The notes below the pieces were generated by a model. It had not been told where the DNA came from. It saw nothing but the letters and a program-made list of their open reading frames with translations, and made no database searches. Source: Streptomyces sp. NBC_00557 (GTDB taxonomy: Bacteria > Actinomycetota > Actinomycetes > Streptomycetales > Streptomycetaceae). Taken from it: 64,000 bases of DNA. The stretch covers positions 558,001-622,000 of the forward strand of contig NZ_CP107796.1 of the NCBI RefSeq assembly GCF_036345995.1, read 5' to 3'. The translations under genes and the position numbers were made by a program. Numbering within the stretch: the first letter of the stretch is position 1; each line of letters opens with the position of its first letter. Shown one piece after another: positions 20,288-25,068 of the stretch.

Positions 20288-21064
20288 TCAGGAACCGTGG
20301 GTGCGGCTTCCGGTGTCGAGGTGAGCCAGGTAGGCGTGCAGGCGGGTGGCCGCGTGCAGCATGGCCAGGCCTCGATCCGTGAGCGTGCGCTGCCAGGTCT
20401 CCAGGGAGGCGGCGAGTGCGTCCGTGCCCCCGGCCGTACGGATCTGGCCGATCACGGTGGCGATGTGTCCGAGCGGCTGGCCTCCGCGCCGCAGGAGGTG
20501 CGCGAGTTCGGCGTCGCGGACGTCGTCGGCGCGGAAGACCCGGTGCCCGGTCGCCGGATCCCGGTCCGGGGTGAGGATGCCGGCGTCCTCCCAGTTGCGC
20601 AACGTGGCCGGTGTGACGCCGAGTTGGTGGGCGAGTTCGCCGACCGTGCGGGTGCCGGTGTCGCGGGCGGGCGCGGGGGCGGGCGCCGATCCCGCCGTCA
20701 GGTGCGTCACCGCTGTGCGTACCGCGGCGAGGGTGTCCCGGTCGCGGAGCAGCTGGCCGTGGCCGCGGTCGACGAGCGTCAGGGCGTCGTCGAGTGCGTC
20801 GCGGTGCAACGCGTTCATGATCTGGCCGGCCGTCGCGTATCCGTACGCCGGTACGAGCGAGAGGTAGGCGCGGAGCGCGGCGGCGTGCACCTCGGTGTAG
20901 ATCCGGTAGCCGCTGCGGGTGCGCTCGGCGGCCGGGATGAATCCGTGCCGCTCGTAATTGCGCACGGCCTGCGTCGAGATGCCGTGCTCGCGCGCGAGAT
21001 CGGTCGGTCGCAAGGAGATCACCGGTTGAGACTTTGTCGCAGCTTCTGGCCGCGTGCGCGGCAT
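20288..21064 (-). CDS. MerR-family regulator with two helix-turn-helix domains (TioE-like)
   Basis: A protein of up to 258 residues with two MerR-type DNA-binding motifs. The first is LAREHGISTQAVRNYERHGF (about 23-42); the second is VGELAHQLGVTPATLRNWED (about 140-159), followed by GHRVFRADDV. This double arrangement is seen in TioE-family regulators. A GTG at 21022 (giving VISLRPTDLAREHG) may be the true start: the region upstream contains half of a 12-bp inverted repeat, and no ribosome site supports 21064. It is divergent from the erythromycin-esterase-like gene. Confidence 0.88.
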   Translation of the reverse strand: MPRTRPEAATKSQPVISLRPTDLAREHGISTQAVRNYERHGFIPAAERTRSGYRIYTEVHAAALRAYLSLVPAYGYATAGQIMNALHRDALDDALTLVDRGHGQLLRDRDTLAAVRTAVTHLTAGSAPAPAPARDTGTRTVGELAHQLGVTPATLRNWEDAGILTPDRDPATGHRVFRADDVRDAELAHLLRRGGQPLGHIATVIGQIRTAGGTDALAASLETWQRTLTDRGLAMLHAATRLHAYLAHLDTGSRTHGS

Positions 21065-21120
21065 ATCCGGCCACTGTAGCGCCCCGAAGTCTCAACCGTC
21101 CTTTCAAGGATACGCTTGAG
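21023..21120. promoter_or_regulatory. Inverted repeats between the MerR gene and the esterase-like gene
   Basis: CGGTTGAGACTT (21023-21034) and its exact complement AAGTCTCAACCG (21087-21098) lie 52 bp apart. Inside the esterase promoter are TCCTT-TC-AAGGA (21099-21110) and a further TTGAG (21116-21120) that mirrors CTCAA (21091-21095). The double-HTH MerR protein is the obvious candidate to bind both sites. Confidence 0.65.
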
Positions 21121-21124
21121 GTCC

Positions 21125-22306
21125 ATGAGTCAGGACATCCGAGACTTCGTGACCCCCTCGTGCGACCTCTTGGCGCTGGGCGAGCCGACCCACCGGGAAC
21201 CGGCCTTCGGGCGGATCAGGAACGAACTGCTCCCCCGGCTGGCCGCGTGCGGATTCCGGTCGATCGCCCTGGAGACCGACCGCGTGGCGGCGCTCGCCGT
21301 CGACGACTACGTCCAGGGCGGAGCCGGGGACCTCGACGCGGTCATGCGCGAGGGCTTCTCGCACGGCTTCGGGGACCAGGAGGCCAACCGGCGGCTGGTC
21401 GGCTGGATGCGCGAGTACAACCGGCACCGGCCGCCCGAAGAGCGGCTCGCCTTCCACGGCTTCGACGCGCCGATGGAGACCATGAGCGCACCGAGCCCCC
21501 GGACCTTTCTGGAACACGCCCGCGACTATCTGGGCCTCCGCCTCGACATCGCGGGCCTCACCGGCGACGACGCCCGATGGAGCCGACCGGAGGCCGTCCT
21601 GGACGCCGCCATGTCACCCGGCGCCACGCCCGAGGCCGAGCGGCTGCGGTCGATCGCCGACGACATGCTCACCACGCTCTACGCACGCGCCCCGCAACGG
21701 ATCGCGGCGACCTCGCGCGACGAGTGGTTCAGGGCCAGGATCCATCTCACCGCCGCCCTGGGCCTGTTGCGCTACCACCGGCAGTCGGCCAGGCCCCTCG
21801 GGCGAAGCGCCCGGATAGCCGGTCTGGCAGCCGTCCGGGACGCGCTCATGGCCCAGAACCTCCTCGACATCCGCGGCATCGAGGAAGAGCGCGGGGCGAC
21901 GCTGGTCTTCGCGCACAACCACCATCTGAAGCGAAGCCCCAGCATCTGGGGGGAGGGAGACCTGGCCGTCGAGTGGTCCGGCGCCGGCGCCATCGTGGGC
22001 GCGCTCCTGGGCCCACGGTACGTCTGCGTCGCCGGCAGCCTGGGCCGCAGCGAGGTCCTCGGACTGGGGGATCCCGCCCCGGACACGTACGAGGGCCTGC
22101 TCCAGAGCCGTATCCCCACCTGGGGTCTGGCGGCGGCCACCGCTCCCCCGGACGCCCGCACCCGGACGGACACTCGTCCCGAGCAGGCCTACTTCCCGCT
22201 CGACCGGGCGACACTCGAAGCGGTGGACGCCGTCCTGCATATCGGCGAACCCTCCCACCCCGCCTCCCCGGGGAGCGGCCGCACGGACCGTAGTGTGGGT
22301 CCGTGA
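21125..22306 (+). CDS. Erythromycin-esterase-family protein (EreA/EreB-like fold)
   Basis: A 393-residue protein. Family features are LLALGEPTHREPAF (residues 15-28, with His23 in the position of the catalytic His), GFRSIALETDRVAALAVDDYV, GFSHGFGDQEANRRLVGWMR, FHGFDAPMET, and TLVFAHNHHLKR near residue 255. Members include macrolide esterases, but many Streptomyces members (succinoglycan-biosynthesis-like) have unknown substrates, so macrolide inactivation is only possible. Start: ATG at 21125; an in-frame TTG lies 9 bases upstream. It overlaps the next gene by 4 bases and is controlled from the MerR-side promoter. Confidence 0.88.
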   Translation: MSQDIRDFVTPSCDLLALGEPTHREPAFGRIRNELLPRLAACGFRSIALETDRVAALAVDDYVQGGAGDLDAVMREGFSHGFGDQEANRRLVGWMREYNRHRPPEERLAFHGFDAPMETMSAPSPRTFLEHARDYLGLRLDIAGLTGDDARWSRPEAVLDAAMSPGATPEAERLRSIADDMLTTLYARAPQRIAATSRDEWFRARIHLTAALGLLRYHRQSARPLGRSARIAGLAAVRDALMAQNLLDIRGIEEERGATLVFAHNHHLKRSPSIWGEGDLAVEWSGAGAIVGALLGPRYVCVAGSLGRSEVLGLGDPAPDTYEGLLQSRIPTWGLAAATAPPDARTRTDTRPEQAYFPLDRATLEAVDAVLHIGEPSHPASPGSGRTDRSVGP

Positions 22307-22744: not shown

Positions 22745-23013
22745 ATGACAGAGCACCGCTTCGGCACGACGAGGACCACTGGGAGATACAGGTCGTCGTG
22801 TCGCTCCGGGGCCGCTCGGTCCTGCGCCCCGTGGCCGCGCTCGGTCTGCTGATGTTCCGCCGACGGCTTCCGCGAGGCTGTCGCCGGCACGGTGGACAGG
22901 ACAGCCCCGGTGGGGAACGAGACCGTGCCGAACACCCTTGCCCTGGACCCGGGCGGGCTGCGCAGACACATCCTGGACTCGGCCGCCTCACCACCGGGGG
23001 AGGCGCACCAGTG
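22745..23013 (+). pseudogene. Possible frameshifted gene remnant
   Basis: Two coding-looking pieces lie in different frames: DEDHWEIQVVVSLRGRSVLR continuing to about 22860, then DGFREAVAGTVDRTAPVGNE through ILDSAASPPGEAHQ and a stop at about 23013. The ATG at 22745 is in the second frame, which is interrupted by TGA. No family is recognised. It may be a decayed gene or chance; 23014-23170 also shows no clear gene. Confidence 0.35.
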
Positions 23014-23171: not shown

Positions 23172-23203
23172 TTGACCTTGCCCCCGTGGGCAGGGTTTAG
23201 CGT
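23172..23203 (+). promoter_or_regulatory. MerR-type promoter with operator in a long spacer
   Basis: A -35 TTGACC (23172-23177) and -10 TTAGCG/TAGCGT (23197-23203) are separated by 19-20 bp. The spacer holds the dyad ACCTTGCCC-4 bp-GGGCAGGGT (23175-23196, 8 of 9 pairs). Overlong spacers with a central dyad are the hallmark of MerR-activated promoters. It lies 20 bp upstream of the MerR-peroxiredoxin gene, so autoregulation is likely. Confidence 0.85.
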
Positions 23204-23222
23204 GGTGGCCGAGGTGATCGGA

Positions 23223-24188
23223 ATGAGGATCGGTGAGCTGGCGGGTCTGGCCGGGGTGACGACGAAGGCCGTGCGGTACTACGAGTCGCTGGGGCTGATA
23301 ACGCCCGCGCGTCTCACCAACGGCTACCGGGACTACGGCGAGGACGACGTACGCCTCGTGCGGGAGATCAGGACGCTCCACCGGCTCGGTATCCCCGCCG
23401 AACGCACCCGCCCCTTCCTCGAGTGCCTGGCGGCCGGGCGCGCACACGCGGACGACTGTCCCGCCTCCCTCGCGGGGTACCGCGAGGCCATCGACGAGCT
23501 GACCGGGCGCATCGAGGCGCTGACGGCCCGCCGCGCGATGCTGATCGCCAGTCTGAACGCCGCGGCCCACCGCGGGAGCCGGGTGGCACCGCCCGCCAAG
23601 AGCGGTACCGGAGGCATGGATTACCTGACGCTGCCCGCGGACCTGCCCGAGCCCGAGGACGACGGCGCGGCGGACCACCTTCCCGGCACGAAGGCACCGA
23701 GCCTCACCCTGCCCGACACGGCGGGCCGCAGGGTCCGCCTGGACACACTCGGCCCCCGCCGCACGGTCGTCTACGTCTACCCGCTCACCGGCCGCCCCGG
23801 CACCGACCTGCCCGAGGGCTGGAAATCCATCCCCGGCGCCAGCGGTTGCACCCCCGAGTCATGCGGCTTCCGGGACCACTTCCACGACCTCCTGGAAGCC
23901 GGCGCCGGCCGCGTCTACGGGCTGTCCAGCCAGGACACCGACTACCAGCGGGAGGTCGTGGAGCGTCTCGGGCTGCCCTTCGACATGCTCTCCGACCCGG
24001 CACTCGAAGTGGCCGGCACGCTCGGTCTGCCCACGTTCGAGGTCGACGGGATGCGGCTGTTCAAGCGCCTCACGCTCGTCCTCCGCGCCGGTGTGGTCGA
24101 GCATGTCTTCTACCCGGTCTTCCCGCCGCACGAGCACGCCCAGCAGGTTCTGAACTGGCTTCGGGAGAACCCGATCTCACCCCTGTAG
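23223..24188 (+). CDS. MerR regulator fused to a PrxQ/BCP-type peroxiredoxin domain
   Basis: A 321-residue single polypeptide. Residues 1-110: MerR helix-turn-helix (MRIGELAGLAGVTTKAVRYY), a dimerisation helix, and Cys68 and Cys79 in the effector region. Residues 155-321: thioredoxin-fold peroxiredoxin with SGCTPESCGFRDHF, giving peroxidatic Cys209 and a resolving-type Cys214 as in PrxQ/BCP enzymes. It probably joins peroxide sensing or removal with transcription control in the cytoplasm. The ATG at 23223 starts the MerR fold; the frame is open further upstream, but the promoter described above lies in that extension. Whether it reduces peroxide or only senses it is not known. Confidence 0.92.
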   Translation: MRIGELAGLAGVTTKAVRYYESLGLITPARLTNGYRDYGEDDVRLVREIRTLHRLGIPAERTRPFLECLAAGRAHADDCPASLAGYREAIDELTGRIEALTARRAMLIASLNAAAHRGSRVAPPAKSGTGGMDYLTLPADLPEPEDDGAADHLPGTKAPSLTLPDTAGRRVRLDTLGPRRTVVYVYPLTGRPGTDLPEGWKSIPGASGCTPESCGFRDHFHDLLEAGAGRVYGLSSQDTDYQREVVERLGLPFDMLSDPALEVAGTLGLPTFEVDGMRLFKRLTLVLRAGVVEHVFYPVFPPHEHAQQVLNWLRENPISPL

Positions 24189-24402: not shown

Positions 24403-25068
24403 ATGCCCGAACCCACCGCACCCGTCACCGAGTTGGCGTCGCAGTACGTCAGCCAGGTGACCAACGACCTCGAGCACAACGTCAAGGAACAGGAACGCAT
24501 CACCGCCGAGATCCAGGCGCTGCAGGAGCAGTTGGCCGCGCTGCAGCACGACCAGACCATCCTGGTGAACATGCGGCAGGCCCTCGGTGTCGCGGCCTCG
24601 GCGGGGGCAACGGCCCCGGTCGAGGGAGCGGTCGTACCGGCCCCTCGCAAGAAGTCCACCACCGCCACCGGTCCGCGCCGCGCGCCCAAGAAGTCCGCAC
24701 CCGAGCCGGCCGAGCGCAGGAAGCAGCCCGCCAAGAAGCCCGCGGCGACGAAGTCCGCGGCGAAGAAGGCGCCTGCGAAGAAGGCGTCCGGTCAGGCGGC
24801 TCAGCCCACCCTCATCGAGCTCGTCCGCCGCCATCTCGCCGAACAGCAGGAGCCCCGGTCCGCGGCGGAGGTCGCCGAGGCGCTGGGCAAGGCGCATCCC
24901 GACCGGGAGATCCAGACCAAGGTCATCCGCACCACGCTGGAGAACCTGGTGGCCCGCAACAACGCCCAGCGCAGCAAGCAGGGCTCGTCCGTCTTCTACA
25001 CCGTCACCAGCGCCTCCGAGCCGGCGCCGGAGAACACGGAGAAGTCCCCGTCCGACGCCGCCGGATGA
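24403..25068 (+). CDS. Coiled-coil / H1-like lysine-rich linker / winged-helix protein
   Basis: A 221-residue protein in three parts. Residues 8-60 form a heptad-rich coiled coil (LEHNVKEQERITAEIQALQE). Residues 80-140 are Lys/Ala/Pro-rich with repeated AKK/PAKK motifs like histone H1 tails. Residues 145-205 resemble a winged helix (LIELVRRHLAEQQEPRSAAE, then IQTKVIRTTLENLVARNN and SSVFYTV). It probably binds DNA as an oligomer; nucleoid or regulatory roles are inference. The start at 24403 follows GGAG with 7-base spacing. The gene ends at a strong terminator. Confidence 0.82.
   Translation: MPEPTAPVTELASQYVSQVTNDLEHNVKEQERITAEIQALQEQLAALQHDQTILVNMRQALGVAASAGATAPVEGAVVPAPRKKSTTATGPRRAPKKSAPEPAERRKQPAKKPAATKSAAKKAPAKKASGQAAQPTLIELVRRHLAEQQEPRSAAEVAEALGKAHPDREIQTKVIRTTLENLVARNNAQRSKQGSSVFYTVTSASEPAPENTEKSPSDAAG

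Follow-up and report, generated by a model that had tools for sequence, protein, structure and literature searches.

A MerR-peroxiredoxin fusion gene of Streptomyces sp. NBC_00557 as a candidate TipA-like system for thiol stress

TipA (TipAL/TipAS) of Streptomyces lividans is a self-regulated gene product in which a MerR helix-turn-helix (HTH), a coiled coil and a C-terminal effector are joined and an internal start gives the effector alone; a passage of PMC7762955 describes it as a minimal system that regulates itself and has two alternative start codons. The stretch of DNA analysed here (the window) covers 64,000 nucleotides (nt) of Streptomyces sp. NBC_00557, C1:558001-622000 of a 9.0-Mb genome in two contigs, with a GC content of 70-75% in 4-kb steps, and contains a gene that encodes a MerR domain fused to a peroxiredoxin domain. 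This fusion has the layout of TipA, including a predicted self-regulation and, in many of its relatives, a candidate internal start that would yield the effector by itself. Unlike TipA, its effector is a peroxiredoxin, its own internal start in the window is poor, no match to PF07739 (the TipAS drug-binding domain) is found, and its candidate signal is thiol oxidation instead of a drug. CueR, MerR, ZntR and SoxR share with the fusion the HTH, the dimerisation helix and a promoter with a long spacer, whereas the fusion has no C-terminal metal or Fe-S loop and carries its cysteine pair elsewhere. The thioredoxin-adjacent MerR proteins of Actinomycetia, represented in the same genome by the paralog L002, are of the same subfamily, have two cysteines ten residues apart (Cys-x10-Cys, Cx10C) at the same position and are likewise associated with a thiol-disulfide enzyme; in contrast to the fusion they are unfused, a MerR tree built with a quick method separates them from the fusions (support of the fusion group 60, weak), and the promoter dyad of L002 differs by eye.

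The fusion is probably an autoregulated MerR system of the TipA type that has another effector and probably responds to another signal, and with moderate confidence we regard it as an autoregulated thiol-stress sensor joined to its output enzyme. In such a mechanism, the MerR domain would occupy its own promoter, with the 20-bp spacer, as a dimer. Oxidation or modification of Cys68/Cys79, probably through a disulfide that links the end of helix 4 to the beginning of the dimerisation helix, would turn it into an activator able to untwist the promoter. The C-terminal peroxiredoxin of the induced product would then remove the presumed oxidant and thus close the loop. In many relatives a free peroxiredoxin would probably be produced as well, through initiation at the internal start; this start is poor in the window and missing from most of its nearest relatives.

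The fusion gene and its operator

The features of the locus are as follows.
23172..23203 (+), MerR-type promoter/operator, predicted from sequence; the same element is present at 33 distinct fusion loci
23211..23216 (+), Shine-Dalgarno-like GAGGTG ahead of ATG 23223, from sequence
23223..24188 (+), MerR-peroxiredoxin fusion gene, 321 amino acids (aa); open reading frame (ORF), Pfam, database relatives
23223..23567 (+), MerR domain with HTH and long dimerisation helix, aa 1-115; Pfam, AlphaFold
23424..23426 (+), codon of Cys68, proposed sensor cysteine 1; invariant in 31 aligned fusions
23457..23459 (+), codon of Cys79, proposed sensor cysteine 2; invariant in fusions and present in thioredoxin-linked MerR
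23574..23630 (+), variable linker, predicted disordered, about aa 118-136; predicted local distance difference test (pLDDT), length spread
23610..23618 (+), junction GGAGG-c-ATG, Met132, first residue of the peroxiredoxin domain; poor internal start, spacing 1 nt
23616..24185 (+), peroxiredoxin domain, aa 132-321, insert-bearing PrxQ/BCP-fold variant; Pfam, Foldseek, VIA-align
23847..23849 (+), codon of Cys209, presumed peroxidatic cysteine; matched to the GCT motif of 5epf, invariant in 31 aligned fusions
23862..23864 (+), codon of Cys214, presumed resolving cysteine (+5); invariant in 31 aligned fusions

The ORF at 23223-24188 (+) starts with ATG, preceded by the ribosome site GAGGTG, and its stop codon ends at 24188. 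Its frame stays open upstream as far as a TTG at 22938, and the database copy (P0002) has 328 aa, 7 more, with an implied start at 23202 that falls within the -10 element. An initial annotation of this DNA had placed the start of the feature at 23172, where the -35 hexamer begins. Its description of a single 321-residue protein of MerR and peroxiredoxin type agrees with the frame and with the Pfam matches, all above cut-off: MerR_1 at aa 1-60 (55 bits; cut-off 21.6) and MerR (49.9; 28.2), which place the N-terminal HTH in the MerR family, Redoxin at aa 154-307 (47.6; 26.6) and AhpC-TSA at aa 207-277 (48; 26). Cys68, Cys79, Cys209 and Cys214 are the only cysteines. The AlphaFold monomer model, with helices at 3-10, 14-22, 40-54, 63-70 and 80-115 in the MerR part, has a mean pLDDT of 83 and a predicted template modelling score of 0.57, so that the arrangement of the domains is unsure.

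The relatives described here come from a database search that gave 7,695 matches (candidates up to 7,999), the best 120 of which are listed, and a set of 80 loci kept from 117, of which 32 match the fusion end to end. The nearest named relatives among the database matches listed are from Streptomyces. The two halves could in principle be separate proteins or the product of an assembly artefact, since a frameshift can hide in a single frame and the frame of one end-to-end locus (L082, left out of the protein counts) is broken. However, the frame is single and unbroken in the other 31 of these 32 loci, and both domains are present in 120/120 listed relatives (69-100% identical), which refutes this reading; we give it a negligible probability.

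The window promoter consists of TTGACC (23172-23177), a 20-bp spacer and TAGCGT (23198-23203), with 19 nt between its end and the ATG, and contains the dyad CCTTGCCC-n4-GGGCAGGG at 23176-23195 with one mismatch. Variants of TTGACCTTGCCCnnnnGGGCAAGGTTTAGCGT are found at all of the 33 distinct fusion loci (the window, L009 and the 32 end-to-end loci, with L009 and L049 counted once as they are one genome), 48-70 nt before the fusion start. Each has a TTGACC-type -35, the dyad CCTTGCCC-n4-GGGCAAGG or close to it between -35 and -10 (weakest in L054, 5/9), a TAnnnT -10 and a spacing of 20 bp, in a scan that allowed 18-20. A spacer of 19-20 bp is described in a passage of PMC9909328 as a hallmark of MerR control, and the MerR promoter with dyad reported initially is seen at all the fusion loci examined. 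Outside the set from which the pattern was built, 20 further Streptomyces loci (L155-L174) comprised 3 duplicates, 12 loci that could be scored and 5 that could not be parsed. All 12 scored fusions have the operator with 0-4 mismatches, 41-76 nt upstream; of the unparsable ones two were read by eye, L167 with the operator and L163 with an operator that has a degenerate -10. Over both sets the predicted operator lies 41-76 nt before the fusion start, which at the level of sequence fits an autoregulated promoter of the TipA kind.

The operator is also nearly private to the fusion. At up to 3 mismatches, the scan of the window's own genome gave three rows for two distinct places, namely the fusion site on both strands and one other, and with up to 2 mismatches allowed a single site is present in 25 of the 31 fusion-bearing genomes and a second place in 4, while in G416 the same palindromic site is counted on both strands and G422 has none until 3 mismatches. 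In 31/31 of these genomes one operator place is the fusion's own promoter, and a reversed-pattern control gave 0 sites in the own genome and in the fusion-bearing genomes. No operator was found at the 12 scanned loci with standalone peroxiredoxins (up to 6 mismatches). Since it is present at all fusion loci examined and not at these, the operator appears to go with the fused MerR domain, an association expected if, as predicted, that domain binds it. The operator distribution supports the self-contained module that the initial annotation envisaged, as one that regulates itself.

Second sites are few. In G411 and G412 they precede second copies of the fusion. In two Leifsonia genomes (L154, L205, L206, L207) the operator, with 2-3 mismatches, stands before a thioredoxin gene and before a standalone Cys-x10-Cys MerR gene, and the gene surroundings are the same in the two genomes. 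The second place in the own genome (L119, C1:966904) precedes an alpha/beta hydrolase, as does the only other site in S. barringtoniae (L151), with a similar 274-aa protein in both; the hydrolase may be a further target, or the site may have been inherited by chance from a common ancestor. We set aside two sites with 3 mismatches, one before another MerR gene (G418) and one before an oxidoreductase gene followed by another MerR gene (G404).

The cysteine pair of the MerR domain

Cys68, Gly72, Asp77 and Cys79 are invariant in the 31 aligned fusions, and the Cx10C spacing is kept in 120/120 listed fusions, the window copy included. In the AlphaFold model, Cys68 lies within helix 63-70 and Cys79 just ahead of the dimerisation helix 80-115. 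The two extra cysteines pointed out at the outset are indeed present, whereas their assignment to the MerR effector position was loose: Ala76, and not Cys79, aligns with Ser77 of CueR, and Cys79 lies 3 residues beyond.

The same pair marks unfused MerR proteins. L002, the closest paralog in the own genome, is a 142-aa MerR protein with 49% identity over aa 1-115; its gene and the beginning of a thioredoxin gene share 4 nt. Class-wide, 62/246 genomes matched, and among the 30 loci given for L002 orthologs Cys-x10-Cys is present in 30/30 and WCxPC is encoded just downstream in 26/30. Cx10C is likewise found in 120/120 listed close homologues (best 120 of 3,556), which are all close Streptomyces-type proteins whose thioredoxin neighbour was not confirmed one by one. 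SCO5439-SCO5438 of S. coelicolor is presumably a MerR-thioredoxin pair of this type. For trxA2 (sco5438), a passage of PMC9952706 reports that its induction by polysulfide was less significant than for others; neither SCO5439 nor MerR occurs in the main text of that paper. From these comparisons, the cysteine pair is a property of the MerR domain itself, within a subfamily tied to thiol-disulfide enzymes, and because it also marks unfused MerR beside thioredoxin it looks like the domain's own sensor. This is our main argument that sensing is independent of the peroxiredoxin. A thiol-redox role, as in the switch of the initial annotation, is supported in kind by Cx10C beside thioredoxin and by the Leifsonia operator before a thioredoxin gene.

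The same annotation had proposed the peroxidase domain as the sensor or relay of oxidation. In that case the peroxiredoxin would be the receptor: Cys209 would be oxidised by peroxide (or hypochlorite/polysulfide) and transfer the oxidation to the Cys68/Cys79 pair within its own chain or dimer, and one chain would be enzyme, sensor and activator, regulating almost only itself. Oxidation of Yap1 by Orp1 is a precedent, tethering would increase the local concentration, and the four cysteines are jointly invariant in the 31 aligned fusions and kept in 120/120 listed. However, the MerR pair is equally conserved in proteins without the peroxiredoxin (120/120 listed homologues and 30/30 loci). Together with the evidence on the linker given below, this makes a relay in cis rather unlikely, though it is the most serious of the alternatives, and it is not favoured over direct sensing by MerR.

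Cys68/Cys79, perhaps with His75 or Asp77, might instead serve as a metal site or as the target of an electrophile, with the peroxiredoxin as a downstream protective enzyme. His75 is present in 30/31 and Asp77 in 31/31 fusions, Asp77 also in 29/30 thioredoxin-linked loci, and Cys-bearing MerR relatives often sense metals according to a passage of PMC9909328. On the other hand, residue 75 is never His in the thioredoxin-linked loci (0/30; Glu, Ser, Ala, Thr or Gln), and thioredoxin and peroxiredoxin genes, instead of transporter genes, stand as neighbours or second targets. There is no Cys between 80 and 208, i.e. the C-terminal paired-Cys metal loop of MerR/CueR is absent, and all 17 listed NCBIfam equivalog models, metal sensors included, score below their cut-offs. 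Membership of the classical metal and Fe-S sensors (CueR, ZntR, MerR, SoxR) was rejected on these two grounds, and the missing loop makes metal sensing less likely; we consider this explanation improbable, more so than the relay.

The peroxiredoxin domain, the linker and the internal start

Pfam, the alignment, Foldseek and VIA-align assign the C-terminal half to the peroxiredoxin superfamily, with a Redoxin/AhpC-TSA fold and an invariant Cys209. All of the 50 Foldseek/VIA-align rows shown align to about 147-321, i.e. the peroxiredoxin part of the whole-protein query. Cys209 and Cys214, described as intact in the initial annotation, are invariant in the 31 aligned fusions, and their +5 spacing is that of the resolving cysteine of PrxQ/BCP. 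The label BCP/PrxQ is right for the Redoxin fold and the cysteine 5 residues after the peroxidatic one, but too narrow: the equivalog scores are 53.5 of the 140 bits (NF006960, PRK09437) and 44.2 of the 260 bits (NF053650) required, and the domain is about 21-26% identical to PrxQ/BCP structures (3drn, 5epf, 5iiz) and differs from them by an insert before the peroxidatic cysteine.

In the haloarchaeal standalone relatives (L080, L081, L084, L086, L087, L088, L093) the resolving cysteine is lost in 7/7 printed sequences, whose active-site stretch reads GCTPESRGF or GCTPEARGF, so that these would be 1-Cys enzymes. A small Monooxy_af470-like protein is encoded beside one of them (L080, 6622-6951), and a Monooxy_af470 lookalike (by eye) after the fusion in Leifsonia and Leucobacter (L061-L063). 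In two alphaproteobacteria (L085, L097) a standalone peroxiredoxin lies near genes that resemble by eye what we take to be dapA and smpB.

The linker between the two domains has a pLDDT below 50 at 118-131 and is predicted to be disordered, and residue 117 and the PxDD motif are 21-62 residues apart in 31 relatives (27 in the window protein), a spread of about 40. At the junction, an ATG is present in 23/32 fusions, 21 of which have a Shine-Dalgarno sequence 4-10 nt upstream, compared with 203/1,897 nearby codons, 9/90 other internal ATGs and 26/32 proper starts, a comparison that is drawn from related sequences and is not a clean probability. Among the 12 further Streptomyces fusions a junction ATG is present in 8, with a Shine-Dalgarno sequence in 7/8. 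Since linker length varies by about 40 residues, the start signal has probably been selected where it is kept, and fusions that have it probably make both the fusion and a free peroxiredoxin. In the window, GGAGG is 1 nt from the ATG and the junction was scored as lacking a Shine-Dalgarno sequence, which weakens a fully TipA-like layout for this gene. No ATG stands at the junction in its near relatives L039-L042 and L047, although L038, of the same clade, and the close relative L155 score positive.

In a peroxiredoxin tree, also built with the quick method, the fused rows all group with 10 standalone actinobacterial rows (Shimodaira-Hasegawa-like approximate likelihood ratio test 83, weak), and 9 changes are needed. 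The tree holds 34 fused and 42 standalone rows; L083, L092, L100 and L106 gave no segment, and L078, L082 and L097 were left out. Upstream of two of those ten, L072 and L076, MerR-like remnants were recognised by eye, so that some relatives have probably lost MerR and kept the enzyme.

For a relay in cis these observations cut both ways. In the window, L039-L042 and L047, where the internal start is poor or absent, the peroxiredoxin is probably mainly fused, in favour of a relay. Against it stand the predicted disorder and unconstrained length of the linker, the free peroxiredoxin that many relatives probably also make and, with weak tree support, the relatives within the fusion grouping that seem to have dropped MerR and retained the peroxiredoxin.

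Several findings weigh against an autoregulated thiol-stress sensor with a peroxidase as output. PXXXTXXC is the peroxiredoxin active-site motif, and it is absent: in the 31 relatives Ala206 is invariant at -3, and the residue at -7 is Ser, Ala, Thr, Gly or Asn, never Pro. Peroxidase activity could therefore be weak or specialised, although the insert (190-208, pLDDT about 60), which adjoins Cys209, could hide a structural equivalent of the motif. The missing motif and the insert would also suit a non-catalytic ligand- or redox-sensing domain, which we consider very improbable. Cx9C replaces Cx10C in one Streptomyces fusion (L162), 4/30 of the Cx10C MerR loci have no thioredoxin motif downstream, and the alpha/beta hydrolase at the second operator site, in the own genome and one relative, has no clear thiol role. 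The internal start is far from general: 9/32 fusions have no junction ATG, 2 more, the window included, have the ATG without a Shine-Dalgarno sequence, and a protein pattern finds the junction Met in 49/120 listed fusions. Lastly, no widespread conserved neighbour was found when ORFs within about 6 kb were clustered over 33 loci (called with a simple GC-frame script that leaves ORF limits rough); the largest cluster covers 6 loci at varied distances, and a local operon or conserved partner was dropped as an explanation on this ground.

Distribution, precedents and neighbouring genes

The fusion is patchily distributed and has no fixed neighbours. Counting it, as had been suggested, gave in 199 sampled Streptomyces genomes 23 matches at E 1e-40, 19 of which span the fusion essentially end to end; the remaining ones cover 2-284 and 3-187 (one each) or lack the start of the MerR part (two). 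In a phylum-wide sample of 396 genomes, 47 matched, with 2 full fusions, 5 MerR-only matches and the rest mainly the peroxiredoxin part. Among the named carriers are Streptomyces, Saccharopolyspora, Mycolicibacterium, Streptosporangium, Planobispora, Bailinhaonella, Actinomadura, Brevibacterium, Leifsonia, Leucobacter and Agreia.

The domain combination itself is not new, since it is already annotated automatically in databases, where some listed relatives are named 'peroxiredoxin/DNA-binding transcriptional MerR regulator'. No study of a MerR-peroxiredoxin fusion was found in the titles and abstract openings of the open-licence literature among the matches listed, in line with the initial statement that a characterised example was not known. 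Nor was a MerR regulator of a thioredoxin gene found among the literature matches listed, including the main text of PMC9952706. If the proposed mechanism is true, Actinobacteria would have a MerR subfamily with a Cys-x10-Cys sensor, one branch of which stands beside thioredoxin and the other is fused to a peroxiredoxin, and the TipA design of sensor, activator and neutraliser in one gene would have been reused for thiol stress. If instead the relay were true, the fusion would be a cis version of Orp1-Yap1 and would add a new class of signal to TipA-like autoregulated systems. With an operator of such conservation and a usually unique site per genome, the module would offer a ready-made single-gene reporter for whether oxidation can pass from a peroxiredoxin to a DNA-binding domain in cis.

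Elsewhere in the window, a tandem two-MerR-domain protein (20288-21064, -; Pfam MerR in 2 stretches) is encoded divergently from an erythromycin-esterase-family gene (21116-22306, +), which is followed by an ACT-domain gene. Downstream of the fusion, 24403-25068 (+) encodes a 221-aa protein, Lys/Ala-rich by eye, with a weak match to Penicillinase_R below cut-off; among the 33 loci, relatives of this protein follow the fusion only in the window, L038, L039 and L042.
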